Part shown: piece by piece, positions 8,136 through 40,859 of the stretch | Layout of the letters: each line of letters starts with the position of its first letter | Numbering within the stretch: the first letter of the stretch is position 1 | Assembly: GCF_000515115.1 (NCBI RefSeq) | Contig: NZ_AZXF01000005.1 | Coordinates: 62,001-126,000 of the forward strand | DNA length: 64,000 bases | Direction: 5' to 3' | Source of the DNA: Nocardiopsis sp. CNT312 | Lineage (GTDB): Bacteria; Actinomycetota; Actinomycetes; Streptosporangiales; Streptosporangiaceae | Translations under genes and position numbers: made by a program | Notes under the pieces: generated by a model | Databases searched by the model: none | What the model saw: the letters and a program-made list of their open reading frames with translations, nothing else | Told to the model about the DNA's origin: nothing

Positions 8136-8190
8136 GTGTATTTCCCTTCTGAAAACGTGAATAAATGTCTCGGTCGGACTGTTGCCGGAA

Positions 8191-15997: not shown

Positions 15998-16075
15998 GGA
16001 CTCCCTCGGCCCGCCGGTGCGACCGGGCTCCGGCAGCACCGGCGGTCGCACCGCCAACCGATAAGGACCAGCAAC

Positions 16076-22478: not shown

Positions 22479-23585
22479 GTGGCGCGGACCACCGCCCGAC
22501 CCCACCCTCCCCCGGCCACCGCCGAACCCCCTCCCCCGCGACCGGCACGGCGCCGCGTCGGCGGCCCCTGGACGGTCGCCGCCCTGTGCGCGGTGCTGGC
22601 CGTCTCCGCCGTGCTCGCGATCGGTCTGGGCTCGGCGGTCATCGCCCCCCTCGACACCCTGCGTTACTTGTGGGCCGGCACCAGCGGCGGCGTGATCGGC
22701 GCCGAGGAGGTGACGCGGTACCAGATCACCTGGCAACTGCGCACGCCCCGCGTCCTGCTGGCCGCGGTCGTCGGCGCGGGACTGGGCGCGGTCGGTGCGA
22801 CCGTGCAGGCGCTGGTGCGCAACCCGCTGGCGGACCCGTTCATCCTGGGCGTCTCCTCGGCCGCGTCGGTCGGCGCGGTCTCGGTGGGCGTGTGGGGCGT
22901 GCTGGGCTCGCTGGGGGTCTACGCGGTCTCGGCCGGCGCCTTCCTGGGTGCGCTGGGCGGGACGGTGCTCGTCTACCTCGCGTCGCTGTCAGCGGGCGGG
23001 GTGACCCCGCTGCGCCTGGTCCTCACGGGTGTGGCGCTGTCCTTCGGTTTCCAGGCGGTCATGGGGGTGATCGTCTACTTCGTGCCGGGCAACGAGGCCA
23101 CGAGCACCGTTTTGTTCTGGACCATGGGCGGCTTCGGCGCGGCCACGTGGGGCTCCCTGCCGCTGGTCGCGGCGGTCGTGGTCGGCGGGATCGCGGCGCT
23201 GACCTCGGTGAGCCGCCGCCTGGACGTGATAACCCTGGGCGACGAGACCGCCGCCAGTCTGGGTGTGGACACCGACCGCCTGCGGCGGGGCCTGTTCCTG
23301 CTCACCGCTCTGATGACCGGCGCGATGGTCGCGGTGAGCGGCGCGATCGGGTTCGTCGGGCTGATCGTGCCGCACCTCGTACGCATCGTCGCCGGGGCGG
23401 GGCACCGCCGTGTCCTGGTGGTCGCGCCGCTGGTCGGCGCGGTGTTCATGGTCTGGGTGGACCTGCTCGCCCGGGTGGTCGCCGCGCCCCGGGAGATACC
23501 GCTGGGCTTCATCACCGCGCTGGTCGGTGTACCCGTGTTCGTCCTCCTGCTGCGCCGCAGGGGCTACCTGTTCGGAGGCCGCTGA
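22479..23585 (+). CDS. FecCD-family ABC transporter permease
   Basis: The 368-residue permease of a siderophore/cobalamin/metal-chelate importer has about nine to ten membrane segments with family motifs: WQLRTPRVLLAAVVGAGLGA, QALVRNPLADPFILGVSSAA, LRLVLTGVALSFGF, LGDETAASLGVD, AVSGAIGFVGLIVPHLVR and REIPLGFITALVGVPVFVLL. The coupling region before IVPHLVR is intact. GTG 22479 has AGAAAGG upstream; a frame from 22347 would run through the operator/UTR. The stop overlaps the next start by one base. One permease gene implies a homodimer. Confidence 0.9.
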   Translation: MARTTARPHPPPATAEPPPPRPARRRVGGPWTVAALCAVLAVSAVLAIGLGSAVIAPLDTLRYLWAGTSGGVIGAEEVTRYQITWQLRTPRVLLAAVVGAGLGAVGATVQALVRNPLADPFILGVSSAASVGAVSVGVWGVLGSLGVYAVSAGAFLGALGGTVLVYLASLSAGGVTPLRLVLTGVALSFGFQAVMGVIVYFVPGNEATSTVLFWTMGGFGAATWGSLPLVAAVVVGGIAALTSVSRRLDVITLGDETAASLGVDTDRLRRGLFLLTALMTGAMVAVSGAIGFVGLIVPHLVRIVAGAGHRRVLVVAPLVGAVFMVWVDLLARVVAAPREIPLGFITALVGVPVFVLLLRRRGYLFGGR

Positions 23586-24370
23586 TGGATCTGCGCATGG
23601 ACGGTGTGTCGGTCACCGTCGACGGAACGGAGCTGGTGCGCGAACTGTCGCTAGAGGTGCCCGGGGGCCGCCTGGTGGGTCTGGTGGGCCCCAACGGCTC
23701 CGGCAAGTCGACGGCTCTGCGCTGCGTCTACCGGGCGCTGCGCCCCTCGCGGGGAACGGTGTGGCTGGACGGGCGGGACCTGAGCGCCCTGAGCCTGCGC
23801 GAGAGCGCCCGGTCGGTGGCCGCGCTCACCCAGGAGGGCGGCAGCGACCTGGACTTCACCGCGGCGGAGATCGTCGCGCTGGGCCGCACGCCCCACCAGA
23901 GGGGCAACCGGCCCCTGGACGCGCGGGAGCGGGAGCTGTGCCGGTCGGCGATGGAGCGCATGGACGTGGCCCACCTCGCCGACCGGGGCGTGCTCTCACT
24001 GTCGGGCGGTGAGCGCCAGCGGGTCCTGCTCGCGCGCTGCCTGGCCCAGGAGCCGCGAGTCCTCGTTCTGGACGAGCCGACCAACCACCTGGACGTGCGG
24101 CACCAGGTCGGGCTGCTGTCCCTGGTCCGCAGAGCCGGGATCACCGTCCTGGTCGTCCTGCACGACCTCAACCTGGCCGCCGCGGCCTGCGACCGCGTCG
24201 GCGTGCTGTCGGGAGGCCGTCTGGTCGCCTCCGGCACGCCCCGGGACGTCCTCGTCCCCGAACTGATCGAGCGGGTCTTCGGTGTGGCGGCCACGGTCGT
24301 GGCCCACCCCCGGACCGGAACACCCCAGCTCCTCTACTCCCTCACCGATGACACGGAGAAAGAAGGTTAG
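23585..24370 (+). CDS. ABC transporter ATPase for metal-chelate import
   Basis: The 261-residue FecE/BtuD-type ATPase has Walker A GPNGSGKST, a Q-loop near AALTQEGG, signature LSGGERQRV, Walker B VLVLDEPTNHLD and switch His in VVLHDLN. It pairs with the preceding permease (TGATG overlap). All catalytic motifs are intact. Confidence 0.93.
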   Translation: MDLRMDGVSVTVDGTELVRELSLEVPGGRLVGLVGPNGSGKSTALRCVYRALRPSRGTVWLDGRDLSALSLRESARSVAALTQEGGSDLDFTAAEIVALGRTPHQRGNRPLDARERELCRSAMERMDVAHLADRGVLSLSGGERQRVLLARCLAQEPRVLVLDEPTNHLDVRHQVGLLSLVRRAGITVLVVLHDLNLAAAACDRVGVLSGGRLVASGTPRDVLVPELIERVFGVAATVVAHPRTGTPQLLYSLTDDTEKEG

Positions 24371-24376
24371 GACCCT

Positions 24377-25375
24377 ATGAGCAACCGACGAGCCCGGCTG
24401 GGCGCCCCCGCCGCGCTGAGCGCCCTCGCACTCCTCACCTCGGGCTGCGGAGCCCAGGTCGAGGGCGGCACCGAGGCCGCGGCCGAAACGGTCACGGTCC
24501 AGCGGTGCGGCGAGAAGGTCGAGTACACCGTCCCGCAGCGCGCGGTGGTCTACGAGGGCGGCAGCGCCGACAAGATGTTCGCGCTCGGTCTGACCGACCA
24601 CGTGCACGGCTACGTGCTGCCGCCCGCCAACCCGCCGGTGTCGGAGTCGCCCTGGGCGTCGGAGTACGAGCAGGTGGAGTTCCTCAGCGACGACCTGCTC
24701 AACCGCGAACTCGTGGTGGACGCCGAGGCCGACTTCGTCGTCGCCGGGTGGCAGTCCGGGTTCAGCGACGAGCGCGGGATCACCCCCGAGATCCTCGACG
24801 GACTGGGCATCCAGAGCTTCATGCACGCCGAGTCCTGCTACAACTACCCCGGATTCCCCGAGCGGCACACACCGTTCGAGGGTCTGTACACCGACCTGGA
24901 GCGGCTCGGGCAGATCTTCGGGGTGGAGGAGCGGGCCGAAGAGCTCGTGGCGGAGTACCGGGCACGGGTGGCGGCCGTCCAGGAGCAGGCCCCCGAGGGC
25001 GACCCCGTTCCGGTCTTCCTCTACGACTCGGGCACCGACCAGCCGTTCACCGCGGCGAGCCAGGTGCCCGCCAACGAGATCATCGAGTTCGCGGGCGGTG
25101 AGAACGTCTTCGGCGACCTGGACGAGCGCTGGACCCAGGTGGGCTGGGAGGCCGTCGTGGAGGCGCAGCCGGAGGTGATCGTCATCTTCGACTACGGTGA
25201 CCAGCCCGCCGAGGACAAGATCGCCTTCCTGGAGGAGTACGAGGCCACCGCCGACCTGCCCGCCGTTCGCGACGACAACTTCTACATCCTCGACTACAAC
25301 GAGGGCATCTCCAGTCCGCGCAACATCGACGGCCTGGAGGGCTTCGCCGAGTACCTGCGCACACTGGACGCGTAG
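24377..25375 (+). CDS. Metal-chelate-binding lipoprotein of the ABC importer
   Basis: The 332-residue FecB/BtuF-type (TroA-fold) protein has signal peptide and lipobox LLTSGCG, anchoring it outside the membrane. The first lobe begins VTVQRCGEKVEYTVPQRAVV, then ADKMFALGLTDHVHGYV. A long linking helix (LERLGQIFGVEERAEELVAEY) joins the second lobe (VPVFLYDSGTDQPFTAASQV, WTQVGWEAVVEAQPEVIVIF). Family members capture Fe(III)-siderophores, cobalamin or metallophore complexes. The ligand is unknown; the neighbouring biosynthetic genes suggest a self-made chelate. Confidence 0.9.
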   Translation: MSNRRARLGAPAALSALALLTSGCGAQVEGGTEAAAETVTVQRCGEKVEYTVPQRAVVYEGGSADKMFALGLTDHVHGYVLPPANPPVSESPWASEYEQVEFLSDDLLNRELVVDAEADFVVAGWQSGFSDERGITPEILDGLGIQSFMHAESCYNYPGFPERHTPFEGLYTDLERLGQIFGVEERAEELVAEYRARVAAVQEQAPEGDPVPVFLYDSGTDQPFTAASQVPANEIIEFAGGENVFGDLDERWTQVGWEAVVEAQPEVIVIFDYGDQPAEDKIAFLEEYEATADLPAVRDDNFYILDYNEGISSPRNIDGLEGFAEYLRTLDA

Positions 25376-25383
25376 CGGAAGCA

Positions 25384-25427
25384 CCACGGGCCCCGCGCGG
25401 ACGCGATCCGCGCGAGGCCCGTTCGTG
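25384..25427. terminator. Bidirectional hairpin between converging importer and biosynthetic operons
   Basis: CACGGGCC..GCGCGGA pairs with TCCGCGC..GGCCCGTTCGTG across a short loop (25384-25427, with small internal mismatches). It separates the two convergent transcripts; no clear T-run. Confidence 0.6.
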
Positions 25428-25436
25428 GCGCGGCGC

Positions 25437-26456
25437 TCAGCCGGCCCGGTCGAACCTGGCCTGACGGGGCGCCCCGGCCCGCCGCCACTCCATGCGCGCC
25501 CAGGGCAGGCGGAGTTCGGCGGTGTCGGTGATGTGCAGCGGCTTGAGGTCCTCCACCGCCACTGCCTCCTTGTGCCGGGCGAAGACCGAGTCGGTGTAGC
25601 GGTGGCCGGTGTCGGCGGCGACGAACACCACCGTCCGCGCGGGGTCGTGTTCGCGTTCCCACCGGGCGGCCAGGTAGGCGGCGCCGCTGGAGAGGCCCGC
25701 GAACACGGCGTGCCGCCGGAGCAGGTCCACGGTCCCGGACAAGGCGGCCTCGAACCCGGTCCAGTGCACGGTGTCGTAGAGGGCGTGGTCGACGTTGCCG
25801 AAGGGGATGGCGCTGCCGATGCCCGCGATGATGATGTCCCGGTCGGGGACGCCGTCGCTGGCGAAGGTGACGCTGCCGAACGGCTGGACGCCCACCATCC
25901 GGGTGTCCGGGTCCTCCTCCCGCAGGTAGGTGCCCAGTGCTCCGCTGGACACGCCGGTGCCGACGCCGCACACGAGGGTGAGGGCACCGCCGACCTCGCG
26001 GCGGATCGTCTCGGCGACCTCGCGGTAGCCTAAGTAGTGGACGGGGTCGTGGTACTGGCGCATCCAGTGGTAGTCGGGGTGGGCTGCGATGATCTCCCTG
26101 ACCCGGCGGACGCGGCGGTTCTGGTCGAGCCTGAGGTCGTCGGTGGAGGCCATCTGCTCCAGACGGACCCCGAGGACGTCGAGCTGGGCGCGCAGGGTGG
26201 GGTCGACCGTGGTGGAGCCGACGATGTGGCAGCGCAGGCCGTAGCGATGGCAGGCCAGTGCGAGTGCATGGGCGTAGACACCGCTGGAGCTGTCGATCAC
26301 GGTGTCACCGGGGCGGACGGTCCCGGCCTCGATGAGCTGGCGGACGGCGGCCACGGCGGAGACCACTTTGAGGGTCTCGAACCGCAGGCAGACGAGGCCG
26401 CCGCCGAGGTCGATGAGGTCAGGGCGGCCGATGGCGTCGGACGCGTGCTGGTCCAC
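25437..26456 (-). CDS. Cysteine-synthase-like PLP enzyme (SbnA-type candidate)
   Basis: The 339-residue fold-type II PLP enzyme resembles cysteine synthase/SbnA in its LVCGVGTGVSSGALGTYLRE (phosphate-binding Gly loop), GIGSAIPFGNVDH and VFAGLSSGAAYLAA. The lysine region is divergent: FETLKVVSAVAAV replaces the usual NPxGSxKDR, with Lys retained, and SSSGVYAHALALAC replaces TSGNTG. The substrate pocket therefore differs from housekeeping cysteine synthase. SbnA makes a diaminopropionate precursor for staphyloferrin B, and a comparable beta-replacement could build a chelator here. GTG 26456 has AAGGAG upstream. Last gene of the three-gene operon. Confidence 0.82.
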   Translation of the reverse strand: MDQHASDAIGRPDLIDLGGGLVCLRFETLKVVSAVAAVRQLIEAGTVRPGDTVIDSSSGVYAHALALACHRYGLRCHIVGSTTVDPTLRAQLDVLGVRLEQMASTDDLRLDQNRRVRRVREIIAAHPDYHWMRQYHDPVHYLGYREVAETIRREVGGALTLVCGVGTGVSSGALGTYLREEDPDTRMVGVQPFGSVTFASDGVPDRDIIIAGIGSAIPFGNVDHALYDTVHWTGFEAALSGTVDLLRRHAVFAGLSSGAAYLAARWEREHDPARTVVFVAADTGHRYTDSVFARHKEAVAVEDLKPLHITDTAELRLPWARMEWRRAGAPRQARFDRAG

Positions 26457-26537
26457 GGGCTTTACTCCTTGGCAGGGGGCGGGCGGGCACGCGGGAGGGA
26501 TGGACGGCGCGCCCGCCCTGCTGGTGGGGGCGGCCGG

Positions 26538-27323
26538 TCAGGCGGCGGCCCGGTAGCGGTAGAGCACGGTGGGATCGGCGCTGAACTGGGAGAAGGGGAA
26601 GGGTTCGGCGCACACCCCGGCGACCCCGTGGCCGAGCAGGGCGCGGGCGACGGCGCTCGCGCTCTGGGCGTAGACGTACAGCGGGATCCCTCGCCCCTGG
26701 CACCGGTCGAGGAGCGGGCCGAAGGTGCCGTTGCCGAGGGTCATGCCGGTGGCCACGACGGCGTCGGCGGTGTCGACCACCTCCTCCATCGAGTCCGTGA
26801 CCGGGTCGCCCCAGCGGGTGGTGCGCAGGTTCAGGTCGCAGGGCAGGCACACGCCGCCGCGTGCGCGGATGGCGGCGACGAGGGGGTTGACGACCCCGAT
26901 GAGCGCGATCCTGGCGCCCTCGGTGACGGGGGCCAGTTCGGCGATGGCGGCGTCGCGTGCGGCGGCGCGCCGTTCGGGGGTCCCGGCGGGCAGGGTGACC
27001 GGTTCGGCCCGGGGGTCGTCGCGGTGCGGCTCGGTGTGGGCGAGGTAGGCGTCCAGCGCGGCGATGCGCAGGGGCAGCGGTCCGTCTGCCAGCAGGTCGG
27101 CCAGGGGCGCACCGGAGGCCTGTGCGCACAGCTCCGGGGTGATCCGTCCGGCCTCGAAGGAGCAGGCGCCGAAGGCCGCCCCGACCCGGACGGCGACGTA
27201 GTGGTTGAGGTAGGTGGTGTCCCCTCCGGCCAGCCGGGTGCCGTGGTGGAGCCAGAAGACACTGGTGGCCACGGTGTCCCCGACCCTGTCGAGGGTCTCG
27301 CGGAAGAGTTCGTCGACGGTCAT
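26538..27323 (-). CDS. DUF4213/DUF364 putative heavy-metal-chelation protein
   Basis: The 261-residue protein has the DUF4213 N-terminal domain (SVFWLHHGTRLAGGDTTYLN...FGACSFEAG) and a C-terminal DUF364 Rossmann-like domain (GARIALIGVVNPLVAAIRAR, VVATGMTLGNGTFGPLLDRC, LYVYAQSASAVARALLGHGV). Pfam describes these as putative heavy-metal chelation domains; the biochemical reaction is not established. It overlaps the methyltransferase stop by four bases (ATGA), so the two are co-translated. Cysteines occur at GVCLPCDLN and DRCQG. Confidence 0.8.
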   Translation of the reverse strand: MTVDELFRETLDRVGDTVATSVFWLHHGTRLAGGDTTYLNHYVAVRVGAAFGACSFEAGRITPELCAQASGAPLADLLADGPLPLRIAALDAYLAHTEPHRDDPRAEPVTLPAGTPERRAAARDAAIAELAPVTEGARIALIGVVNPLVAAIRARGGVCLPCDLNLRTTRWGDPVTDSMEEVVDTADAVVATGMTLGNGTFGPLLDRCQGRGIPLYVYAQSASAVARALLGHGVAGVCAEPFPFSQFSADPTVLYRYRAAA

Positions 27324-28042
27324 CGGCGGGTGTCCTCCCGGAAACGGAAGAGGTAGGTGAGGACCCCGTCGCCCCAGTCGTGCCGGTAGTGGACCTCGCC
27401 GAGGAAACCGGATTTCTCGGCGTGGGTGACGATGGCGCGCAGATCGGCGGTGTTGGAGGCGATGAGGTAGACGTCGGCGCCGGGCGCCAGGAGGGCGCGG
27501 TCACGCAGTTGGGCGAAGAAGACGGCGGCGATGGGGGCACCGACGCAGACGTTGCGCACCACGTCGGGGTCGGTGCTGGTGGGGTGGCTGACGGCAGGAG
27601 GGTTGAAGGTGACGGTGTCGAAGCGGGTGCCGTCGGGCAGGTCGGTGAACATGTCGCTGACCACGGGCACGATCCTGGTCGGGGTGCGGCCTTCCAGGAG
27701 CAGGGCGAAGTTGCGGGCGGTCGCCTCGACGCTGGGCGCGTGCACGTCGATCGCGTAGACCTCGGCCGCACCGCGCGCACCTGCGGCGACGGCCTCCACG
27801 CCCAGGCCGACGCCCATGGCGGCGTAGCGCTTGCCGCGCACGTCGATGTCGTCGTCCATGAGACGCTGGTGGATCATGCGACTGGTGCCGCCGGGCATGA
27901 AGACGCCGGGAGGAACGTGGAAGTCCCAGCCGTTCCAGGTGTAGGAACGGCTGGTGTGCAGGTCGTTCCTGGGCGGGTTGACGGCGAGGATCTGTTCTTC
28001 GGGCAGCGGAGGGGGCAACTGGTCTGCGAGGGAGCGCTCCAC
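27320..28042 (-). CDS. Class I SAM-dependent methyltransferase-fold protein
   Basis: The 240-residue cytosolic protein has a Rossmann SAM site (GKRYAAMGVGLGVEAVAAGA), an acidic second-strand end (VYAIDVHAPSVEATARNF), SDMFTDLPDGTRFDTVTFNPP (an NPP motif seen in amine- or base-modifying methyltransferases) and a late ALLAPGADVYLIA strand. It could methylate an amine or carboxylate of the metallophore; some relatives of this fold use the SAM aminobutyrate group instead, as nicotianamine synthase does, which cannot be excluded. GTG 28042, GGAAGGA upstream. First gene of the operon read from the 28121-28147 operator. Confidence 0.8.
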   Translation of the reverse strand: MERSLADQLPPPLPEEQILAVNPPRNDLHTSRSYTWNGWDFHVPPGVFMPGGTSRMIHQRLMDDDIDVRGKRYAAMGVGLGVEAVAAGARGAAEVYAIDVHAPSVEATARNFALLLEGRTPTRIVPVVSDMFTDLPDGTRFDTVTFNPPAVSHPTSTDPDVVRNVCVGAPIAAVFFAQLRDRALLAPGADVYLIASNTADLRAIVTHAEKSGFLGEVHYRHDWGDGVLTYLFRFREDTRR

Positions 28043-28120
28043 AGGAGTCCTTCCATGACGTGGAAGACACGGGAACGCCTGCGGGGTCGGCGCTCCCGCA
28101 TCAGGGGGCGTGCGCTATCG

Positions 28121-28147
28121 TAGTGAAAACGATAACCGTTGTCACTA
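28121..28147. promoter_or_regulatory. 27-bp palindromic operator between the metallophore operon and MFS exporter
   Basis: TAGTGA (28121-28126) and TCACTA (28142-28147) frame inner repeats AACG/CGTT; about 20 of 27 positions are symmetric. The element lies midway between divergent starts at 28042 and 28193, in a local AT-rich patch, so one repressor could control both. It resembles actinomycete Zur boxes (TGAAAACGA-like half) more than DtxR/IdeR boxes. Repressor identity is inference. Confidence 0.65.
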
Positions 28148-28192
28148 GTTGGTGTTACGTACCACACACCCGATTCCCGGAAAGGACGTCGG

Positions 28193-29446
28193 ATGACCGT
28201 GTCCCATCCCCAGAAGACCGACGCCGGCCGCGACGCCCCACCGCGCACGCACGTACTGACGGACCCGGCCTTCCTCCGGCTGTGGATCGGGAGCACCGCC
28301 TCCGGCCTGGCCACGTGGGCGATGCCGTTCATCCTCGGCCTGGCCGTCCTCGACGGCTCGCTCACCGCCGTCGGACTCGGCGTGCTGCTGGCCACCCGCA
28401 CCACCGGGTTCCTCGTCTCCCTCCCCCTGGGCGGCCTGCTCGCCGACCGCTTCTCCCGCCGATCGGTGGTGCTGTGGGCCGGGCTCACCGCCGCCCTGGC
28501 CACCCCGGTGATGGCTGCGGGTGTGGAGGCGTCGGCCCTTGTGCTCGCGGCGGTCGCCGCGACGGCCGTCGGCGCGGGGCAGGGCGCGTGCCGACCCGCG
28601 TTCCAGGCGCTCACCGCCGAGGTGGTCGACGAACCGAGGCGCCAGCGGGCGAACGCGGCACTGACCGTTTCCGTACGGGTGACCACCCTGGTCGCCCCCG
28701 CGGTGACGGCCCTGCTGTCCACCACCCTGGATACGAGCGCCCTGCTGCTGGTCACAGCCGCGCTGTGGGCGGTCGCCGCCCTGGCGCCGCCAGGGGAGGC
28801 ACGGACCCGCCCCGGCTCCGCGGCCCCCGAGCCGTGGTCACCGGTCGCCGACTTCGCCGACGGACTGCGCGAGGCGCGGCGGCACCCCTGGTTCCTGGCG
28901 GGACTGGGGGCGCTGACCGCGGTGATCGCCACCGGGTACTCCGCGACGGGTGTCCTGCTGCCCGTGGTCAGCCGCGACACGTTCGGCACCGAGACGGTGC
29001 TGGCGGGCGCGATGACCGCCTACACCGCCGGTGCCCTGGCCGGGGCACTGGTCATCGGCCGGTGGCGTCCGTCGGCCCAGGGGTGGACGTCCCTGTGCGG
29101 ACTGGCGCTGTACGGGTTCGCCCCCCTGAGCCTGCTGGTGCCGGTGAGTCCGTGGACGGTGGTCGCGGCCTACGTCCTGGCGGGGATCGGCATCGAACTG
29201 TTCAACGTGCCGTGGTTCACCGCCGCGCAGCGCGAGGTGGCACCGGACAAGCTCGCCCGGGTCTCCTCGCTCGACTTCCTGTTCTCCTACGGGCTGGCCC
29301 CGGTCGGCCTGGCCCTGATCGCCCCGGCCGCCCAGGCGGTGGGCACCGACACGGTGCTCGCCGTGTGCGCGGCCCTGTGCTTCCTCGCCCCGGCCGCCGC
29401 CGCCCTGGCACCCGGGGCGAAGCGCTTCAGCGCCCGCACCGCCTGA
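28193..29446 (+). CDS. MFS transporter, candidate metallophore exporter
   Basis: The 417-residue protein has 12 predicted membrane segments, with the MFS loop motif GGLLADRFSRRSVVLWAGL between segments 2 and 3. It resembles the drug/siderophore-efflux (EntS-like) branch (DPAFLRLWIGSTASGLATWA at the start). ATG 28193 follows GGAAAGGA; a frame from 28139 runs through the operator region. Shared control with the biosynthetic operon suggests export of its product. Confidence 0.85.
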   Translation: MTVSHPQKTDAGRDAPPRTHVLTDPAFLRLWIGSTASGLATWAMPFILGLAVLDGSLTAVGLGVLLATRTTGFLVSLPLGGLLADRFSRRSVVLWAGLTAALATPVMAAGVEASALVLAAVAATAVGAGQGACRPAFQALTAEVVDEPRRQRANAALTVSVRVTTLVAPAVTALLSTTLDTSALLLVTAALWAVAALAPPGEARTRPGSAAPEPWSPVADFADGLREARRHPWFLAGLGALTAVIATGYSATGVLLPVVSRDTFGTETVLAGAMTAYTAGALAGALVIGRWRPSAQGWTSLCGLALYGFAPLSLLVPVSPWTVVAAYVLAGIGIELFNVPWFTAAQREVAPDKLARVSSLDFLFSYGLAPVGLALIAPAAQAVGTDTVLAVCAALCFLAPAAAALAPGAKRFSARTA

Positions 29447-31140: not shown

Positions 31141-31434
31141 ATGTACCTGGTTCACCTGACCTTCCTCTCCCCTCAACGCAAACACTTCCCCTGCAACATC
31201 AGGGAAATGATCAAATCCGCGTCCGAACCCGGGGACGGACTGGAACACATCAGCGTGCACCAAAGGACGGGCGCGGACCCCGTCATCGGACTCTTCCTGC
31301 GCTCCCACAGCCTCGACGACACCGAGCGCACCGCCTCCCGCCTCTGGCACAGGACCGTCAAAAACCACTCTGAGCTGGGAGAATATCAGCTTTTCAGGTG
31401 CGAGGTACCCCTCATCGACGACCCCTTTCCCTAA
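31141..31434 (+). CDS. Conserved-type small hypothetical protein
   Basis: The 97-residue protein, without signal or membrane segments, has a compact alpha/beta pattern: MYLVHLTFLSPQRKHFPCNI, then DGLEHISVHQRTGADPVIGLF, and TASRLWHRTVKNHSELGEYQ. It resembles small proteins scattered through actinomycete genomes whose function is unknown to me. Its relation to the downstream operon is unclear; 147 bases separate it from the next ORF. Confidence 0.6.
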   Translation: MYLVHLTFLSPQRKHFPCNIREMIKSASEPGDGLEHISVHQRTGADPVIGLFLRSHSLDDTERTASRLWHRTVKNHSELGEYQLFRCEVPLIDDPFP

Positions 31435-31737: not shown

Positions 31738-33003
31738 GTGCACACCACGGAGCCCGGACCCGACTACGCCGGACTGGCTGAGCGGTTCACCACCCCGCTC
31801 TTCGTCTACGAAGCCGACGCGTTCGAACGGTCCTACACCCAGCTCAGACAGGCGCTCCCCCACGGCGTCGACATCATGTACTCGCTCAAGGCCAACCCGA
31901 ACATCAGTGTCTGCGCGCTGCTCGGCTCCCTCGGGGCAGGCGCCGAGGTCAGCTCACACGCCGAACTCGTCACCGCCCTGCGCGCCGGGGTCGCACCCCA
32001 GGACATCATCTTCCTCGGCCCCGGCAAGTCCGACGCGGAGCTGCGGGCGTGCGTCGAGGCCGGGATCGCGGCACTGGTCTGCGAATCGCTGGAGGAGGCC
32101 GAGCGGCTCGACGCGCTCGTGGCCCGGCGCGGCTCGGAGCCCTTCCCTGTGATGCTGCGGGTGAACCCGTCCTTCACCGCCAAGGGGCAGGGGCTGGCCA
32201 TGGGCGGCAAGCCCCGCCAGTTCGGCATCGACGAGCGTGCCGTCCGCGACGCCAAGCACCGCCTCGCCGACCTCACCGGTGTCCGTGTCACCGGGATCCA
32301 CGCCTACATGGGCACGCGCTTCCTGGACCACGCCAGTGTCGCGGCCAACACCGGGCGCATCCTCGCCCTGGCCGAGTCGCTCGCCGCCGACCTGGGCATC
32401 GGCCTGGAGACCGTCGACTTCGGGGGCGGCCTCGGGGTGGCCTACTTCGCGGGCGAGAGCGACCCGGACATGGACCTGCTGCGCCGGGACATGGACGAGG
32501 TCATCGCCGACTTCCGCCAGCGCAACCCCCGCTGTCGGCTGATGATGGAGTCCGGGCGCTTCCTGACCGCCCGGGCCGGCACCTACGTGGTGCGCGTCCG
32601 GGAGGTCAAGGAGTCGATGGGCGAACTCTTCGCCGTGGCCGACGGCGGCACCAACCACCACATGGCGGCCGTGGGCATCGGCAGCTTCGTCAAACGCGAC
32701 TTCCCGGTACGCCACCTCGGCGCGCCGGACGCGCCGCCCACCCACCGGTACTCCATCACCGGGCCGCTGTGCACACCCAACGACCTCATCGTGAAGAAGG
32801 CCCCACTGCCCGAGGTCCGCCCCGGGGACCTGATCGGCATCGACCGGTCGGGGGCCTACGGACCGACCGCCTCGCCCGGCCTGTTCCTCAGCCACGGTTA
32901 CCCGGCGGAGGTCCTCGTCCACCGCGGCGGCGCCGACCTGGTCAGGGTCCCGGACACGACCGAGGACCTGCTGGGCCGGCAGCGGCTGGTCCGGACCCGA
33001 TGA
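31738..33003 (+). CDS. LysA/BtrK-type PLP decarboxylase acting probably on an ACP-bound amino acid
   Basis: The 421-residue fold-type III (alanine racemase-like) decarboxylase has PLP lysine in MYSLKANPNISV, His/Gly motifs IHAYMGTRFLD and ETVDFGGGLGV, a phosphate site near LMMESGRFLTARAG, and the substrate/dimer-interface residues in TGPLCTPNDLIVKK and IDRSGAYGPTAS. It is closer in style to decarboxylases next to ACP/ligase pairs (BtrK of butirosin, exosortase-associated type) than to lysine-pathway LysA. BtrK decarboxylates glutamyl-S-ACP. GTG 31738 follows GAAGGAAGGAC. Its stop overlaps the next start (ATGA). Confidence 0.85.
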   Translation: MHTTEPGPDYAGLAERFTTPLFVYEADAFERSYTQLRQALPHGVDIMYSLKANPNISVCALLGSLGAGAEVSSHAELVTALRAGVAPQDIIFLGPGKSDAELRACVEAGIAALVCESLEEAERLDALVARRGSEPFPVMLRVNPSFTAKGQGLAMGGKPRQFGIDERAVRDAKHRLADLTGVRVTGIHAYMGTRFLDHASVAANTGRILALAESLAADLGIGLETVDFGGGLGVAYFAGESDPDMDLLRRDMDEVIADFRQRNPRCRLMMESGRFLTARAGTYVVRVREVKESMGELFAVADGGTNHHMAAVGIGSFVKRDFPVRHLGAPDAPPTHRYSITGPLCTPNDLIVKKAPLPEVRPGDLIGIDRSGAYGPTASPGLFLSHGYPAEVLVHRGGADLVRVPDTTEDLLGRQRLVRTR

Positions 33004-33419
33004 CACCCGCCGTCCGCGTGGGCGTGGACGTCCTCGACCGCCGCGAACTCGACCGCCTCCTGCTCCGCCCCTGGTTCCTGCGCTTCGGCTACGCACCGCA
33101 GGAGAGGGCGGAGGCCGAGGCACTGGGACCGCGGCGGCGGGCGGAGTTCCTCACCGGGCGCTTCGCCGCCAAGGAGGCCGTCCTCAAGGCGCTGGGCCGG
33201 GGGATGCTCCAGGGCATCGCCCTGAGCGACATCCGGGTGGCCCGGACCGGGAGGGGCGCTCCGCACGTGGTCTTCCTCGGTGCCGCCGCCCGGCTGGGGC
33301 TCCCCCCCGTGAGCCTGTCCATCTCGCACAAGAACGACGTCGTGGTCGCCGTGGCGCTGTGCACCGGCCACGCCGACACCGGAAGGGAAAGAGGAGCACA
33401 TGCCGACCGCAACCGTTGA
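33000..33419 (+). CDS. AcpS-type 4'-phosphopantetheinyl transferase
   Basis: The 139-residue protein converts apo-ACP to holo-ACP using CoA. It contains the three AcpS motifs: RVGVDVLDRRELDRLL (Mg-binding Asp), FLTGRFAAKEAVLKALG (catalytic Glu/Lys) and LSISHKNDVVVAVAL. ATG 33000 overlaps the decarboxylase stop by four bases, and its 3' end overlaps the hotdog gene by 20. A dedicated PPTase inside the operon indicates that the ACP encoded downstream is its client and is not shared with fatty-acid synthesis. Confidence 0.88.
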   Translation: MTPAVRVGVDVLDRRELDRLLLRPWFLRFGYAPQERAEAEALGPRRRAEFLTGRFAAKEAVLKALGRGMLQGIALSDIRVARTGRGAPHVVFLGAAARLGLPPVSLSISHKNDVVVAVALCTGHADTGRERGAHADRNR

Positions 33420-33858
33420 ACCGACCGCGTCCACCGCCGCACCGCCGGCGGAACCGGCCGGACCCGTGACCGCGTTCCTGCGGGTGCGCATCAGTGAGGC
33501 CGAGGCCTACTACGGAGGAGGCGTCGTGGAGGGCGCCCGAGTCCTGCGCCTGTTCGGCGACCTGGTCACCGAGATCACCGTGCGCGAGGACGGCGACGAG
33601 GGCCTGCTCTCGGGCTACACCGACGTGCGCTTCACCGCGCCCGTCGTCGCCGGCGACTACCTGGAGGTCCGCGGGAAGCTGGTGCGCCGAACCCGCCTGC
33701 GCAGGGTCGTGGAGCTGAGCGCCGTCAAGGTGATCAGCGCCGATCCCGAGGTGCGGCCCAGCGCGGCCCGGCTCCTGGACGAGCCGCAGCCGGTGTGCAC
33801 GGCCACGGCGACGACCGTGGTGCCCCGTTCGGCCCTGGACCGCGAGGAGACCCGATGA
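33400..33858 (+). CDS. Hotdog-fold protein of the 3-aminobutyryl-CoA ammonia-lyase (Kal) type
   Basis: The 152-residue product has a Pro/Ala N-terminal leader, then a single hotdog domain: AFLRVRISEAEAYYGGGVVE, GARVLRLFGDLVTEITVRED, GDEGLLSGYTDVRFTAPVVA, GDYLEVRGKLVRRTRLRRVV. This order closely recalls 3-aminobutyryl-CoA and beta-alanyl-CoA ammonia-lyases (AHYGG...LVDGA...LFGDVATEL...DGDEGL...FLAPVYAGDF). Those enzymes reversibly eliminate ammonia from beta-aminoacyl thioesters. Acting here on ACP thioesters would give an enoyl (for example acryloyl)-ACP or add an amine; that is inference. ATGA overlap with the ligase gene. Confidence 0.75.
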   Translation: MPTATVEPTASTAAPPAEPAGPVTAFLRVRISEAEAYYGGGVVEGARVLRLFGDLVTEITVREDGDEGLLSGYTDVRFTAPVVAGDYLEVRGKLVRRTRLRRVVELSAVKVISADPEVRPSAARLLDEPQPVCTATATTVVPRSALDREETR

Positions 33859-35360
33859 GCACCGACGCGAGACTCCTGCACGAGATGCTCGACGAGGCCG
33901 CCCGGCGGGACCCGGACACCCCGGCTCTGGGGTTCGGCGACCGGAGGACGAGCCTGGGGGCCCTGGCCACCGACAGCGCCCGGATCGCGCTCCACCTGCG
34001 GGCGCGGGGCCTGCGGCGCGGCGACCGCGTGGCCGTGCGCACGGACGACCCGCTGGCGGCGGTCACCGCGCTCTTCGCGGTCTCCCGGGCCGGTGCGGTG
34101 TTCAGCCTGCTGCACGAGAGCGTGCGGGAGGGGGCCTTCACCCACGTGCTCGGCGACGCCGAGCCCGCGGCCGTGGTCTGCGACACCGACGGGGCCAGAG
34201 CGGAGGCCACCGCCACCGGCGCCGACTTCCTCACCACCGGCGAGCTGCTCGCCCTGGCCGAGGCACCGGCCCCAGCAGACGCGGACGGCCCTCCCCCAGT
34301 CCTGGAGGTCGACCCGGTCTGCATGATCTACACCTCGGGTACCACGTCGCGGCCCAAGGCCGTGGTGAGCACCCATCAGCAGGTGCTGTTCGCGGCCCGG
34401 GCGATCCAGCGGCGCCTGGCCTACCGGCCCGACGACACCGTCTACTGTCCCCTGCCGGTCTCCTTCGACTACGGCCTCTACCAGGTGTACCTGTCGCTGC
34501 TCTCCGGGGCCCGGCTGCGCTTCGGCACCGCCGCCGAGTCCGGTCCCCCCCTGCTGCGCACCCTCGTCGAGAGCGGGGCGACCGTCCTGGCGGGCGTTCC
34601 GGCCGTCTCGGACCGCCTGGCCTGGCTGGCGTCCCGCGGCAAGCGGCTCCCCACCGGGCTGCGCCTGCTCACCAACACCGGCGCGGCGCTGTCGGAGAAG
34701 ACCGTCTCCTCGCTGCGCGCGTCCCTGCCCGGGCTGCGAGTGCAGGTGATGTACGGCCTGACCGAGTGCAAGCGTGCGGCCATCATGCCGCCCGACGGGG
34801 ACCTGGAGCGCCCCGGATCGTGCGGACTGCCGCTGGAGGGGACCGAGATCTTCGTGATCGGCCCCGACGGCGCGCGCCTGCCCGCCGGGGAGACCGGCCA
34901 GATCGTGGTCCGGGGCCCCAACGTCATGGCGGGGTACTGGCGGCGCGAGGAACTGACCGCCGAGCGCTTCCACCGCCGCGACGGGCTCTTCCCCGAGCTG
35001 CGCACCGGCGACTACGGGTGGGTGGACGAGGACGGCTACCTGTACTTCGACGGCCGCAGGGACGACATCTACAAGGAGCGCGGCTTCCGGGTCAGCGCCA
35101 CCGAGGTGGAGGCCGCGGCGCACCGGGTCGCAGGGGTGGCCTCCGCGATCGTCCTGCCCCCCGCCGAGGGGCGGCCCGCCCAACTGGCCGTCATCTCCAG
35201 CATCTCCAAGGAGGAGGTCCTGGAGGGGATGCGCCACGAGATCGAGGAGTTCAAGGTTCCCCGGGTCTGCGTCCGCTTCGACGACCTGCCCACCAACAGC
35301 AACGGCAAGGTCGACCGGGCCCGGCTCGCCGACCTGATCTCGGCTTCGGGGCGCACCTGA
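33855..35360 (+). CDS. AMP-forming acyl/aminoacyl-ACP ligase
   Basis: The 501-residue ANL-superfamily enzyme has P-loop MIYTSGTTSRPKAVVSTHQ, A5-like VMYGLTECKR, LRTGDYGWVDEDGYLYFDGRRDD and catalytic Lys in LPTNSNGKVDRARL. SFDYGLYQVYLSLLSGA is shared with ligases that pair with LysA-like decarboxylases and ACPs. It should adenylate a carboxylic or amino acid and transfer it to the phosphopantetheine arm of the ACP. Substrate unknown; aspartate, glutamate or a diamino acid would fit the decarboxylase. ATG 33855 overlaps the preceding stop. Confidence 0.88.
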   Translation: MSTDARLLHEMLDEAARRDPDTPALGFGDRRTSLGALATDSARIALHLRARGLRRGDRVAVRTDDPLAAVTALFAVSRAGAVFSLLHESVREGAFTHVLGDAEPAAVVCDTDGARAEATATGADFLTTGELLALAEAPAPADADGPPPVLEVDPVCMIYTSGTTSRPKAVVSTHQQVLFAARAIQRRLAYRPDDTVYCPLPVSFDYGLYQVYLSLLSGARLRFGTAAESGPPLLRTLVESGATVLAGVPAVSDRLAWLASRGKRLPTGLRLLTNTGAALSEKTVSSLRASLPGLRVQVMYGLTECKRAAIMPPDGDLERPGSCGLPLEGTEIFVIGPDGARLPAGETGQIVVRGPNVMAGYWRREELTAERFHRRDGLFPELRTGDYGWVDEDGYLYFDGRRDDIYKERGFRVSATEVEAAAHRVAGVASAIVLPPAEGRPAQLAVISSISKEEVLEGMRHEIEEFKVPRVCVRFDDLPTNSNGKVDRARLADLISASGRT

Positions 35361-35371
35361 GCGCTCCGGCA

Positions 35372-35392
35372 CACACCGCACACCGCACACCG
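35372..35392 (+). repeat. Three tandem CACACCG heptamers
   Basis: CACACCG is repeated three times without change in the 61-base gap between ligase and ACP genes, followed by CACCG. It may be simple slippage or a spacer that lowers coupling and lets the ACP be translated independently from its own strong RBS (AGGAGAAGCCC). Confidence 0.6.
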
Positions 35393-35421
35393 CACCGATC
35401 CGACAACGCTAGGAGAAGCCC

Positions 35422-35679
35422 ATGCAGCGCAACGACGTCGTCACCGCCCTCGAAGCCGCCCTGTCCGAGGCACTGGAGCGCGAGGTGACCGGACTGGAGG
35501 GCCGTGTCCGCCTCTTCGAGGACCTGCACCTGGACTCCACCTCGATGCTGGAGGTCCTCATGGCCCTGGAGGAGTCCATCGGCCTGGAGGTCGAGCCCGA
35601 GGACCTGGAGATCGAGGCGTTCGAGTCCGTCGACACCCTCACCGACTTCGTCCTGTCCGCGCAGCCGACCGCGGTCTGA
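35422..35679 (+). CDS. Acyl carrier protein
   Basis: The 85-residue acidic protein is a stand-alone four-helix carrier. The phosphopantetheine serine is in FEDLHLDSTSMLEVLMALEE (LDS motif, residue about 39), and helix 3 EIEAFESVDTLTDFV is typical. AGGAGAAGCCC provides a strong RBS. It would carry the amino-acyl intermediate through ligase, decarboxylase and hotdog enzyme. Confidence 0.92.
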   Translation: MQRNDVVTALEAALSEALEREVTGLEGRVRLFEDLHLDSTSMLEVLMALEESIGLEVEPEDLEIEAFESVDTLTDFVLSAQPTAV

Positions 35680-35706
35680 ACCCCCTTCCCCGCTTGAGAG
35701 GCCACC

Positions 35707-36111
35707 ATGCTCATCCGTTCCTTCGCCGAGATCGAGGACACCGAACGCCACGTCAAGGGCGCCAAGGGCACCTGGGAGAGCAAGCGAATCGTGCTCGCCC
35801 GCGAGGGCGTCGGGTTCTCCCTGCACGAGACCACCGTCTACGCGGGCACGGAGACGTCCCTGTGGTACGCGAACCACTACGAGGCCGTGCTGTGCGTGGA
35901 GGGGGAGATGGAGCTCACCGACGACGAGACCGGTGAGAAGCACTGGATCACCCCCGGCGTCATGTACCTGCTCGACGGACACGAGCACCACACGCTGCGC
36001 CCCACCAAGGACTCCCGGTTCATCTGCGTGTTCAACCCGCCGGTCACCGGCCGGGAGGACCACGACGAGAACGGGGCCTACCCCCTGCTGACCGAGCCCG
36101 TCGGCTCCTGA
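35707..36111 (+). CDS. ectC: EctC-type cupin cyclase (ectoine synthase homologue)
   Basis: The 134-residue cupin resembles L-ectoine synthase over its full length: [80 protein letters not shown]. The metal ligands Tyr, Glu and His of EctC fall in WYANHYEA and DGHEHH and are present. EctC cyclises N-gamma-acetyl-diaminobutyrate to ectoine. Genuine ectoine operons run ectA-ectB-ectC; here there is no EctB and the gene follows an ACP, so the substrate may be a different N-acyl diamine. GAGAGG precedes the ATG. Confidence 0.88.
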
Positions 36112-36161
36112 CCCCGCCGACGCCCCCCACAGCCCGCCCGAACAGAACCTGGGAGCTTGTC

Positions 36162-36683
36162 ATGACCGTCACGTTGGACGCACCCGAATCCGCCGCGCGC
36201 GCCAGGGTCGTCTTCCGCCGTCCCGTCCCGGCCGACGCCCGCGCCGTCCGGAACCTGGTCCGGGAGTCCGACCAGCTCGACGACAACAGCGAGTACTACT
36301 ACATGATCTGGTTCCGCGACTTCGCGGCGACCTCCGTGGTGGCCGAGCTCGACGGCGAGGTCATCGGTTTCCTCACCGGCTACCGCCGACCGGACGCACC
36401 GGAGACCTACTTCGTCTGGCAGGAGGCGGTCCGTCCCCGGCACGGCATCCCCTTCCTGGGGGTGAAGCTCTTCGACCACGCCGTGGGCGAGCAGCTCCTC
36501 AACGGCGCCCGGTACGTGGAGGCCACCGTGTCGGAGGAGAACACGCCGATCGTGATGGTGCTCAAGCGCTTCGCCAAGCGCTGGAGCGCGCCGGTGCACA
36601 AGAGCGTGCTCTTCTCCAGCGCGGACTTCGGCGGGGGCCACCACGAGGAGACCCTCTACCGGATCGGTCCGGTCCTTCCCTGA
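36162..36683 (+). CDS. ectA: EctA-type GNAT acyltransferase (diaminobutyrate acetyltransferase homologue)
   Basis: The 173-residue GNAT protein follows the EctA plan: VFRRPVPADARAVRNLVRES, DQLDDNSEYYYMIWFRDFAA, SVVAELDGEVIGFLTGYRRP, ETYFVWQEAVRP. In EctA the next segment is the acetyl-CoA pyrophosphate loop (RGxGxA/G); here it reads RHGIPFLGVKLFDHAVGE, without the canonical Arg/Gly pattern, so the acyl donor may not be acetyl-CoA. An acyl-ACP donor from the same operon is attractive but inferred. GGGAGC RBS; last gene before a strong terminator. Confidence 0.8.
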   Translation: MTVTLDAPESAARARVVFRRPVPADARAVRNLVRESDQLDDNSEYYYMIWFRDFAATSVVAELDGEVIGFLTGYRRPDAPETYFVWQEAVRPRHGIPFLGVKLFDHAVGEQLLNGARYVEATVSEENTPIVMVLKRFAKRWSAPVHKSVLFSSADFGGGHHEETLYRIGPVLP

Positions 36684-37755: not shown

Positions 37756-37826
37756 GGCCCGATTCTTTCACATCCTGTCCTTCCGGACACTGTCAGTGGT
37801 GCGGGCTCCCCGAGGATTCTGGTCCC

Positions 37827-39152
37827 ATGACACGCGAGACCGCCTCACAGCACAGGCCGACACCCGTACTGTTCCACCGGGCGTGGGCGATCGCCCTGAT
37901 CGCCTGCCTGACCATCGTGGCCGCGGCGGCCTTCGCCGCGATGCCCGGGATCCTGATCGACCCCCTGCACACCGAGTACCAGTGGTCGCGCGGCTCCATC
38001 AGCGTCGCCGCGTCGGTCAACATGATCCTCTACGGCGTCATCGCCCCGTTCGCCGCCGCCCTGATGGACCGGTTCGGCATCCGCCGGATCGCCCTGGTGG
38101 CCCTGTCCACCATCGTGGCCGGCGCCCTGCTGACCACGGTGATGACCGAGGTGTGGCAACTGACCCTGTACTGGGGCGTGCTCATCGGCGCGGGCACCGG
38201 GTCGCTGTCCATGACCTTCGCCGCGACCATCGCCGGCCACTGGTTCGTGAAGCGCCGGGGGCTGGTGATCGGGGCCCTGACCGGGTCCAGTGCCTTCGGC
38301 CAACTGGTCTTCCTGCCCGCCCTGGCCTGGATCGTCGACCACCAGGGGTGGCGTCCGGCCCTGGTCACCCTGTCCCTGACCGCGGGCACGATGATCGTCC
38401 TCATCGCCCTGGTCCTGCGCGACCACCCCGCCGACGTGGGACAGCGCCCCTACGGTGCGACGTCCTTCGTGGCCAAGCCGAGGACGGACGAGGGCGCGGC
38501 CCGGCGGACGGTCGGGGTGCTGTACCGCTCCGTGCGCAGCCGCGGGTTCTGGCTGCTGGCGGGGGCGTTCGCCGTGTGCGGCGCGACCACCAACGGGATC
38601 ATGTGGACCCACTTCGTTCCCGCCGCCCAGGACGAGGGGATGGCCGTCACCGCGGCCGCCTCCCTGGTGTCGATGATCGGCGTGTTCGCCCTGGTGGGGA
38701 CGGTGCTGTCGGGGTGGCTCACCGACAGGTTCGATCCGCGCCTGCTGCTGGTGGGCTACTACGCGGGCCGGGGCCTGCTGCTGGCCGGCCTGCCCGCGCT
38801 GCTGGGCCCGGACGCCGGGGCGGCCATCGTCTCCTGGGTCGTGGTGTTCGGCCTGCTCGACGTCGCGACGGTGCCCCCGACCATCCTGCTGTGCCGCCGG
38901 GTCTTCGGCGCGGACGGCGCGATCGTGTTCGGCTGGGTCAACGCGGTCCACCAGGTGGGAGCGGGGGCCATGGCGGCCTTCGGCGGCTTCACCCGCGACG
39001 CGACCGGCGACTACGGGCCGGTGTGGCTGCTGGCCGCCGCGCTGTGCGGGGTCGCCGCGGTGGCCGCGTTCCGGGTCGGCCGCACGGAGGAGGAGTCCGG
39101 CGACGGTCCCGAGTCGCGGACCGACGCCCCCTCCGAGTCGGCGGGGGCGTGA
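37827..39152 (+). CDS. MFS transporter (OFA/monocarboxylate type)
   Basis: The 441-residue protein has 12 membrane segments and MFS motifs (APFAAALMDRFGIRRIALVA, then VFALVGTVLSGWLTDRFDPR). HWFVKRRGLVIGALTGSSAFGQ resembles oxalate/formate and monocarboxylate transporters. ATG 37827 follows GAGGAT; longer frames run into the regulator. The divergent GlxA-type gene suggests inducible uptake of an organic acid. Confidence 0.85.
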   Translation: MTRETASQHRPTPVLFHRAWAIALIACLTIVAAAAFAAMPGILIDPLHTEYQWSRGSISVAASVNMILYGVIAPFAAALMDRFGIRRIALVALSTIVAGALLTTVMTEVWQLTLYWGVLIGAGTGSLSMTFAATIAGHWFVKRRGLVIGALTGSSAFGQLVFLPALAWIVDHQGWRPALVTLSLTAGTMIVLIALVLRDHPADVGQRPYGATSFVAKPRTDEGAARRTVGVLYRSVRSRGFWLLAGAFAVCGATTNGIMWTHFVPAAQDEGMAVTAAASLVSMIGVFALVGTVLSGWLTDRFDPRLLLVGYYAGRGLLLAGLPALLGPDAGAAIVSWVVVFGLLDVATVPPTILLCRRVFGADGAIVFGWVNAVHQVGAGAMAAFGGFTRDATGDYGPVWLLAAALCGVAAVAAFRVGRTEEESGDGPESRTDAPSESAGA

Positions 39153-39863: not shown

Positions 39864-40859
39864 ATGGATGACCTGGGCATCGATCCTGTCGCCGCATCCG
39901 TCTACCGGCGCATGCTGTTCCACCCGGAGGAGGGTGTTCCCGAACTGGCCGCCGCCCTGAACCTTTCCGAGAGAAAGGTCAGAGAGGGCCTGGACGTTCT
40001 CAGTGAACTGGCGATGGTGCGCTCCTCCACCAGTTCCGGCGGACTTCTGCACGCGATCGACCCCCATTTGGGCACACAGATCCTCCTCGCCCACCAGCAG
40101 GCGGACCTGGCCCGGCAACAGCAGAGGCTGGAGGAGAGCCGGGCCGCGGCGGCACAGTTGATCGGTGACTTCAGCGAGAACTTCGGCGCCGCCCCCGAGA
40201 GCGAGGAACTGTCCGTGATCCGGGGGCTGGACCGGATCCGGGACACCCTCCACCTGCTCAACGAACAGGTGCGGGAGGAGTTCTGGGCCTTCGCCCCCGG
40301 CGGTTCCCAGACACCGGAGAACATGAGGTCCTCACAGCCGCTCAACCACAGGCTCCTGGACCGGGGCGTGCGGATGCGGACCGTGTACCTGGACAGCCTC
40401 ACCAACGACCCGGACAGCGTCACACACGCCAGGAACCTGGTGGACCTGGGCGCCCGGGTCCGCACGGTGCCGTCACTGCCGACCCGCATGGTCATCTGCG
40501 ACCGGGCGGTCGCGATGGTCGCGATCGACGACGAGGACACGGCCAAGGGCGCGGCGGTGATCAGGGCACCCGGCGTGGTGGCCGCGCTGTGCACCCTGTT
40601 CGAGGAGGTGTGGCGCGGCGCCCGGGAGCTGGCCGCCACACCGAGCAAGGACCCCGGTGAGGAGATGACCCCGCAGCAGGGCGAGGCCCTCAGACTGCTC
40701 GCCCAGGGCCACACCGACGAGGTGATCGCCCGGCGGCTGGGCGTCTCCCAGCGCACGGCCCGGCGCTTCGCGTCGGAGATCATGGTACGCCTGTCCGCGA
40801 GGAGCCGGTTCCAGGCGGGCGTCAACGCCGTACGCCGGGACTACCTGCCCGCCGAGTAG
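39864..40859 (+). CDS. TrmB-like/LuxR-type transcriptional regulator
   Basis: The 331-residue protein starts with a TrmB-like winged helix (IDPVAASVYRRMLFHPEEGV, AALNLSERKVREGLDVLSEL), passes through a coiled segment (LARQQQRLEESRAAAAQ) into a sugar-phosphate/PLD-like central domain (IRGLDRIRDTLHLLNEQVRE...VRMRTVYLDSLTND) and ends in a LuxR HTH (MTPQQGEALRLLAQGHTDEV, GVSQRTARRFASEIMVRLSA). This fusion is common in actinomycetes, often for secondary metabolism. It stands alone on its strand. Target unknown. Confidence 0.88.
   Translation: MDDLGIDPVAASVYRRMLFHPEEGVPELAAALNLSERKVREGLDVLSELAMVRSSTSSGGLLHAIDPHLGTQILLAHQQADLARQQQRLEESRAAAAQLIGDFSENFGAAPESEELSVIRGLDRIRDTLHLLNEQVREEFWAFAPGGSQTPENMRSSQPLNHRLLDRGVRMRTVYLDSLTNDPDSVTHARNLVDLGARVRTVPSLPTRMVICDRAVAMVAIDDEDTAKGAAVIRAPGVVAALCTLFEEVWRGARELAATPSKDPGEEMTPQQGEALRLLAQGHTDEVIARRLGVSQRTARRFASEIMVRLSARSRFQAGVNAVRRDYLPAE

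Follow-up and report, generated by a model that had tools for sequence, protein, structure and literature searches.

Gene content of the operon

We analyzed a 64,000-nucleotide stretch of Nocardiopsis sp. CNT312 (contig NZ_AZXF01000005.1, positions 62,001 to 126,000; hereafter the window, with positions counted from its first letter), and in it a seven-gene operon at 31738-36683 on the plus strand that combines homologues of the ectoine enzymes EctC and EctA with an acyl carrier protein (ACP) and may form an ectoine-type pathway with a changed acyl donor. A first-pass annotation had described an operon of EctC, EctA, an ACP, its phosphopantetheinyl transferase (PPTase), an AMP ligase, a BtrK-like decarboxylase and an ammonia-lyase-type hotdog protein; all seven genes were recovered there on one strand, and our family calls, taken from Pfam and NCBIfam profiles and from the best solved relatives in the PDB, agree with it. 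In order, the genes are as follows.

31738..33003, plus strand: DC, predicted BtrK/VinO-type pyridoxal phosphate (PLP) decarboxylase of amino-acyl-ACP (PF02784/PF00278; BtrK 2j66)
33000..33419, plus strand: PPT, AcpS-type phosphopantetheinyl transferase (PF01648, 54.3 bits)
33400..33858, plus strand: KAL, predicted hotdog-type beta-aminoacyl thioester ammonia lyase (NF052388, 4mtu)
33855..35360, plus strand: LIG, VinN-type adenylating ligase, predicted to load L-aspartate via its beta-carboxylate (VinN 3wvn)
35422..35679, plus strand: ACP, free-standing carrier protein (PF00550; DLHLDS)
35707..36111, plus strand: EctC, ectoine synthase (PF06339, 171 bits; NF009806, 182 bits)
36162..36683, plus strand: EctA-like, EctA-fold GNAT without the coenzyme A (CoA) pyrophosphate loop, predicted acyl-ACP:diaminobutyrate N-acyltransferase

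The DC/PPT and KAL/LIG junctions are ATGA overlaps, and PPT and KAL share 20 bases when the KAL start is put at 33400, although it may lie further downstream; translation of these genes is thus probably coupled. The genes after LIG are spaced by 61, 27 and 50 bases. No ectB was found in the operon, which thus departs from the canonical ectABC arrangement of ectB beside ectA and ectC.

Distribution and conservation of the gene set

The neighbourhood search that had been proposed for the seven-gene set found the EctA-like type in 17 distinct genomes after duplicate removal, belonging to Nocardiopsis, Streptomyces and its kin, Lentzea and Halosaccharopolyspora. It was noted that LIG and ACP accompany it in all 17, DC, PPT and KAL in 16, and EctC in 15. 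Loci L222 and L081, taken as two contigs of one species (identical places in G1141 and G1166), were counted once, and G1041 (L226), with a 68% DC and no EctA-like protein, was left out. Because the module and the EctA-like gene recur together in 16 genomes, a chance grouping of genes was rejected.

A scan of GTDB contigs for EctC, from which the best 80 of 559 relatives were kept, placed a cluster-type EctA at 10 of these loci. The module is complete at eight of the ten, L039 has just LIG and ACP, and L081 runs into a contig end; ectB lay within the locus in all 70 others. Among Nocardiopsis genomes, a cluster-type EctA (>300 bits) was present in 5/40 and an ordinary-type EctA match in 40/40. 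The G216 family, probably Streptomyces-like, contained a DC-like protein at E <=1e-105 in 56 of 345 genomes; seven of the 56 had at least 66% identity to DC, and six of these seven carried the EctA-like protein. In a DC search of 296 sampled genomes from the phylum, the 1e-90 threshold was passed by just two, the window's own and one with a 41% match. KAL homologues occurred in 79 of 394 actinobacterial genomes; of 30 KAL loci listed (about 1.5 kb each side), 28 had no DC, PPT, ACP or Ect partner (L138 has a 27% ligase match), and the other two, from the window's genome and a close relative, both had partners. Six wider KAL stretches (L177-L182) also showed no DC, PPT, ACP or Ect partner, with a 27% ligase match at L182.

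Predicted substrate and product of the carrier-protein module

DC belongs to the Orn/DAP decarboxylase family, and its best solved relatives are the tied BtrK-type structures 7ru7 (E 5.7e-78) and 2j66 (E 5.8e-78). As an Orn/DAP-type PLP decarboxylase beside a ligase and an ACP, with BtrK as its nearest solved relative, it falls into the BtrK/VinO type; YSLKAN is present in 15/16 cluster copies and GPLCTPND in 16/16. Similar conservation was found for PPT (GRFAAKEA, 16/16), KAL (FGD..TE, 16/16) and ACP (a PP-binding PF00550 protein with DLHLDS in 17/17). KAL had no Pfam match, and its best solved relative is the beta-alanyl-CoA:ammonia lyase 4mtu (E 3.5e-15). In 8 of 16 clusters, the window's not among them, KAL and PPT lie in one uninterrupted reading frame and are likely a fusion protein; these are the same eight genomes that have a cluster ectB.

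The best solved relative of LIG, an AMP-binding enzyme, is VinN (3wvn, E 5.3e-104). Passages of PMC11284099 describe VinN as loading 3-methylaspartate, FlvN as recognising aspartate, and VinO as decarboxylating an ACP-bound substrate. An excerpt of PMC7756342 proposes that BolO, BolN and BolC act likewise, on aspartate, and assigns VinN Asp230 to the amino group and Ser299 and Arg331 to the carboxyl group of the substrate. In LIG, the Asp230 equivalent is conserved in 16/17 rows (the LIG of L039 is truncated) and the Arg331 equivalent in 17/17.

These relationships bear on whether a different acid is loaded, either glutamate, giving GABA-ACP as in butirosin, or 3-methylaspartate, giving a methacryloyl group and a 2-isopropenyl analogue. 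The nearest relatives are the glutamyl-ACP decarboxylase BtrK for DC and the 3-methylaspartate ligase VinN for LIG, and the window's genome and 4 of the 16 others encode a glutamate mutase E subunit. However, the glutamate/GABA route was disfavoured because a beta-elimination lyase could not remove a gamma-amino group. Furthermore, no glutamate mutase was found in 12/17 genomes and the five found sit on other contigs or far from the cluster, so that 3-methylaspartate is not generally available to cluster hosts. We consider the loading of another acid quite improbable.

The beta- or gamma-aminoacyl-ACP of the first-pass annotation can thus be narrowed, as the ligase and lyase sequences point to aspartate and to the beta-amino form, and away from the gamma-amino one. 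Taken together, the partly VinN-like ligase residues, the scarcity of 3-methylaspartate, the chemistry of the KAL family and the shared PPT-KAL frame point to acryloyl-ACP as the product of the module. The deamination had been called optional; with KAL in 16 of 17 clusters it looks obligatory.

The EctA-like acyltransferase and EctC

The EctA-like protein scores 131.9 bits against TIGR02406 (EctA), above the cut-off of 120.6, and has the EctA fold; the best solved relatives of it and of EctC are the Paenibacillus EctA and EctC. In GNATs the P-loop binds the pyrophosphate of CoA. We found that this loop, [RQ]-G-x-[GR]-[LIV]-A, is complete in 101/101 ordinary EctA sequences (4 gapped rows of 105 dropped) and in 0/18 unique EctA-like sequences. 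The two groups were first defined by the loop itself, and identity outside the loop (at least 53.6% versus at most 46.6%) reproduced the same split of 18 EctA-like and 105 ordinary sequences. A second, partial EctA-like match with the same altered loop was seen in one Streptomyces-like genome (L260, G1111:C76:17759-18043).

The window EctC scores 182 bits against NF009806 (cut-off 128) and carries the iron ligands Glu57, Tyr84 and His92 of an ectoine synthase. Of the residues assigned to iron, substrate and product in PMC6344544, it keeps all except Asn38, which is His. Of 13 ordinary EctC rows compared, 12 share this His, and an active-site change was dropped as a clue to the substrate. A single clade (support 0.947) contains 13 of the 15 cluster EctC; it lies next to ordinary Streptomyces EctC and away from the ectABC-operon EctC of the window's own genome, so the cluster probably moved between genera. 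The window's genome encodes one more EctC, a divergent third copy (39% to that of the cluster), on a contig other than that of ectABC (L115 from about 7113; G000:C5:105094-105417).

An ordinary ectoine operon was rejected on the lost CoA loop and the five extra genes. A related possibility is that the EctA-like enzyme still depends on acetyl-CoA, the operon yielding plain ectoine and the ACP module a separate product. The EctA-like score above the equivalog cut-off and the ordinary ectoine synthase residues of the window EctC would fit this. However, the CoA loop is lost in 18/18 sequences, the conserved core showed no other enzyme that might accept an acyl group from the ACP, and all nine genomes without a cluster ectB already own an above-cut-off EctB and an ordinary-type EctA elsewhere. 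Of the alternatives we considered, this one has the slimmest chance of being correct.

On the acceptor side, we took the diaminobutyrate contacts of PlEctA to be Asp33, Tyr38, Trp79 and Glu158 and placed the equivalents by alignment; the EctA-like enzyme retains conserved acceptor-side residues. At position 88 it has Glu or Thr in place of the Val/Ile of ordinary EctA, which could face an amine. This would suit transfer of beta-alanyl rather than acryloyl, with KAL editing or buffering the ACP and a 2-(2-aminoethyl) ectoine analogue as product (C7H13N3O2, expected [M+H]+ 172.11), and VinN/VinO-type modules are known to finish with a beta-aminoacyl-ACP. Such a scheme leaves KAL no constructive role, however, and KAL is kept with its motifs in 16/17 clusters and shares its frame with PPT in 8/16. 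We therefore judge beta-alanyl transfer unlikely.

EctB and the probable acyl acceptor

The first-pass annotation had emphasized the lack of EctB, which holds for the window operon and fails both for the system and for the genome. An ectB lies inside 8/17 related clusters (L037, L061, L073, L081, L221, L223, L224 and L225), with scores above the TIGR02407 cut-off in L037, L061 and L073 and in L221, L223, L224 and L225 (G1046, G1111, G858 and G1110); the L081 copy is cut by a contig end, and the genome of L081/L222 has no complete EctB above the cut-off. The genomes without a cluster ectB encode an EctB above the family cut-off elsewhere in 9/9 cases, in the window's genome within an ordinary ectABC operon (G000:C18). 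The missing EctB is thus a lineage-specific, local trait. Sixteen of the 17 genomes also have an ordinary-type EctA. For Lentzea (L061, G1164), the sole EctA match is the EctA-like one and the sole above-cut-off EctB is the cluster copy. Because of the cluster ectB genes, the EctB encoded elsewhere in the other nine genomes, and the reliance of Lentzea on its cluster copies, the generic diamine acceptor proposed earlier can be sharpened to L-2,4-diaminobutyrate as the most likely one.

Proposed pathway

We propose an ectoine-type pathway in which a carrier-protein module takes the place of acetyl-CoA and which leads to a vinyl ectoine analogue, a reading to which, as a whole, we give a little better than an even chance. 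The wiring of the carrier to the Ect enzymes, the central idea of the first-pass annotation, is supported by the conservation of the gene set over several families, the cluster ectB genes, the CoA loop loss, the shared PPTase-lyase frame and the window EctC residues. Gene content, gene conservation, loop loss, conserved catalytic residues and the shared frame are read from the sequences themselves. From these we infer every substrate, each chemical step and the vinyl product. PPT would convert ACP to holo-ACP; LIG would adenylate the beta-carboxylate of L-aspartate and load aspartate onto the ACP; DC would strip the alpha-carboxylate to give beta-alanyl-ACP, and KAL would remove ammonia to give acryloyl-ACP, which would carry a reactive unit of three carbons. 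The EctA-like enzyme would then use this acyl-ACP to acylate L-2,4-diaminobutyrate at its gamma-amino group, with the diamine supplied in the window's genome by EctB of the ordinary ectABC operon and in other genomes by cluster EctB. EctC would dehydrate the N-gamma-acryloyl-diaminobutyrate to 2-vinyl-1,4,5,6-tetrahydropyrimidine-4-carboxylate, the vinyl ectoine analogue (C7H10N2O2, expected [M+H]+ 155.08), and a major facilitator superfamily (MFS) protein encoded downstream may export it.

Several observations weigh against this proposal. The loop loss argues against a CoA donor and falls short of proof for an ACP donor. KAL reaches 139.6 bits to NF052388 (Kal), under the 160-bit equivalog cut-off, and its homology to Kal/Acl is clear, so it was classed as a relative of Kal and not as Kal; its AlphaFold model (pLDDT 53) is too low to use, and an internal start within the shared PPT-KAL frame is possible. 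LIG has Thr at the VinN Ser299 site in 17/17 rows, and the glutamate mutase E subunit is encoded in 5/17 genomes. L039 has no DC, PPT or KAL within its 20 kb and a truncated LIG. The EctC of L224 and L225 is divergent (56%), branches outside the clade and has His in place of the iron ligand Tyr84, and no EctC was found at L221 and L223 within 19.5 kb. In these last four clusters a cytochrome P450 gene lies directly 3' of the EctA-like gene, with ferredoxin-like and ferredoxin reductase genes nearby (Pfam was run on the L221/L225 P450 and the L225 reductase; the other P450 and ferredoxin calls are by similarity); a LysE-type exporter gene is present in addition at L221 and L223. Since four clusters add a P450, two of them lacking EctC, the pathways form a family in which vinyl ectoine is not the end product everywhere.

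At L229 (G1136:C1:2203000-2222500), the same DC, ACP, PPT, KAL and LIG lie next to a type I polyketide synthase (PKS) and a pair of KASIII-like genes; Ect matches are absent, and the module perhaps supplies an acryloyl or beta-alanyl starter unit. A broader proposal, in which our confidence stays somewhat below even, is a portable actinobacterial module converting aspartate to acryloyl-ACP by decarboxylation and deamination. It would branch into CoA-independent EctA plus EctC for exported vinyl-amidine amino acids, P450 plus ferredoxin for oxidised acyl-diaminobutyrates, and type I PKS (L229). In the window's genome, a second DC (57%) was noted in another cluster, L220 (G000:C6:112000-131000), with an AMP-binding ligase, three acyl-CoA dehydrogenases, a KASIII-like gene, an ATP-grasp gene, an ACP and condensation-domain genes; this is perhaps a dehydro-beta-alanine lipopeptide-like cluster.

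Neighbouring genes and other features of the window

31141..31434, plus strand: small open reading frame (ORF), 97 aa, no Pfam/NCBIfam match; homologues 5' of DC at L034-L036, L185, L073 and L221-L225
36757..37755, minus strand: AraC-type regulator with a DJ-1/PfpI domain (Pfam/NCBIfam), probable cluster regulator
37809..39152, plus strand: MFS transporter (PF07690), probable product exporter
39864..40859, plus strand: LuxR/GerE-type regulator (PF00196), possible cluster member; homologues at L035, L036, L185, L073 and L221-L225

The AraC/DJ-1 regulator and the MFS gene each have homologues adjoining the cluster in 11/17 cases, the window counted. The regulator was found at L034-L037, L039, L051, L081, L113, L185 and L227 and not at L061, L073, L221 or L223-L225; the MFS gene was found at L035-L037, L039, L051, L061, L081, L113, L185 and L227 and not at L073, L221 or L223-L225, and the L034 stretch stops before its position. 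The earlier extent of 31738-36683 therefore encloses the seven genes, and the cluster probably reaches past it to these two. The LuxR-type regulator and the small ORF recur at some related clusters.

Elsewhere in the window, 22593-29443 encodes a FecCD-type permease, an ATPase-like ORF (Walker motif by eye), a binding protein, a PALP enzyme, a DUF364 (putative heavy-metal chelation) protein, a small methyltransferase and an MFS protein, a possible small metallophore locus. Short related proteins that look secreted are encoded in two tandem runs, four of 81-87 aa at 7344-8436 (minus strand) and two of 69-77 aa at 15764-16282 (plus strand); one scanned member of each run had no Pfam match.

Comparison with known systems

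No description of such a pathway was found in the open-access literature searched, in line with the first-pass annotation; subscription papers lie largely outside that literature, and this absence is no proof. The same literature yielded no paper on a route to acryloyl-ACP. Acrylyl-CoA is called highly toxic in a passage of PMC4029986, so a dedicated ACP and an EctA-like enzyme that does not bind CoA would make sense. If the proposal is correct, a compatible-solute pathway became a specialised-metabolite pathway through the changed acyl donor of one enzyme, a route to acryloyl-ACP is in hand, and the predicted product is a small electrophilic cyclic amidine, related to the salt protectant ectoine and not previously described.

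The EctB-EctA-EctC ectoine pathway shares with this system the EctA fold, the EctC family including the residues for iron and substrate, the EctB family in 8/17 clusters and the likely diaminobutyrate acceptor. It differs in that here five additional genes appear to provide an acyl-ACP as donor, the EctA-like enzyme has lost the CoA loop, genes for a P450 or an exporter are added, and an ordinary-type EctA coexists in 16/17 genomes. With the macrolactam starter modules (VinN/VinO/VinL; FlvN) and bolagladin BolO/BolN/BolC, in which loading precedes decarboxylation, the cluster has in common a ligase, a PLP decarboxylase and a free ACP; it adds an ammonia lyase and its own PPTase, and delivery is to a GNAT and a cupin cyclase rather than to a PKS or nonribosomal peptide synthetase. 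The second ligase and trans-acyltransferase of the macrolactam systems were not seen in the window operon. KAL resembles Acl/Kal (beta-alanyl-CoA and 3-aminobutyryl-CoA ammonia lyases) in family and in the common AHY-G, GD-TE and FTAPV-GD stretches, but differs in its ACP operon setting, its frame sharing with the PPTase in 8/16 clusters and its score below the NCBIfam Kal cut-off. Finally, orphan EctC proteins are described in parts of PMC5924519 and PMC6344544 as isolated genes of unclear role. As with these, the cluster EctC lies outside ectABC and is additional to an ectABC in the same genome, but it belongs to a defined set of genes and is placed next to ordinary Streptomyces EctC in the tree, and the proposed pathway offers a concrete candidate answer to the role of extra EctC proteins.

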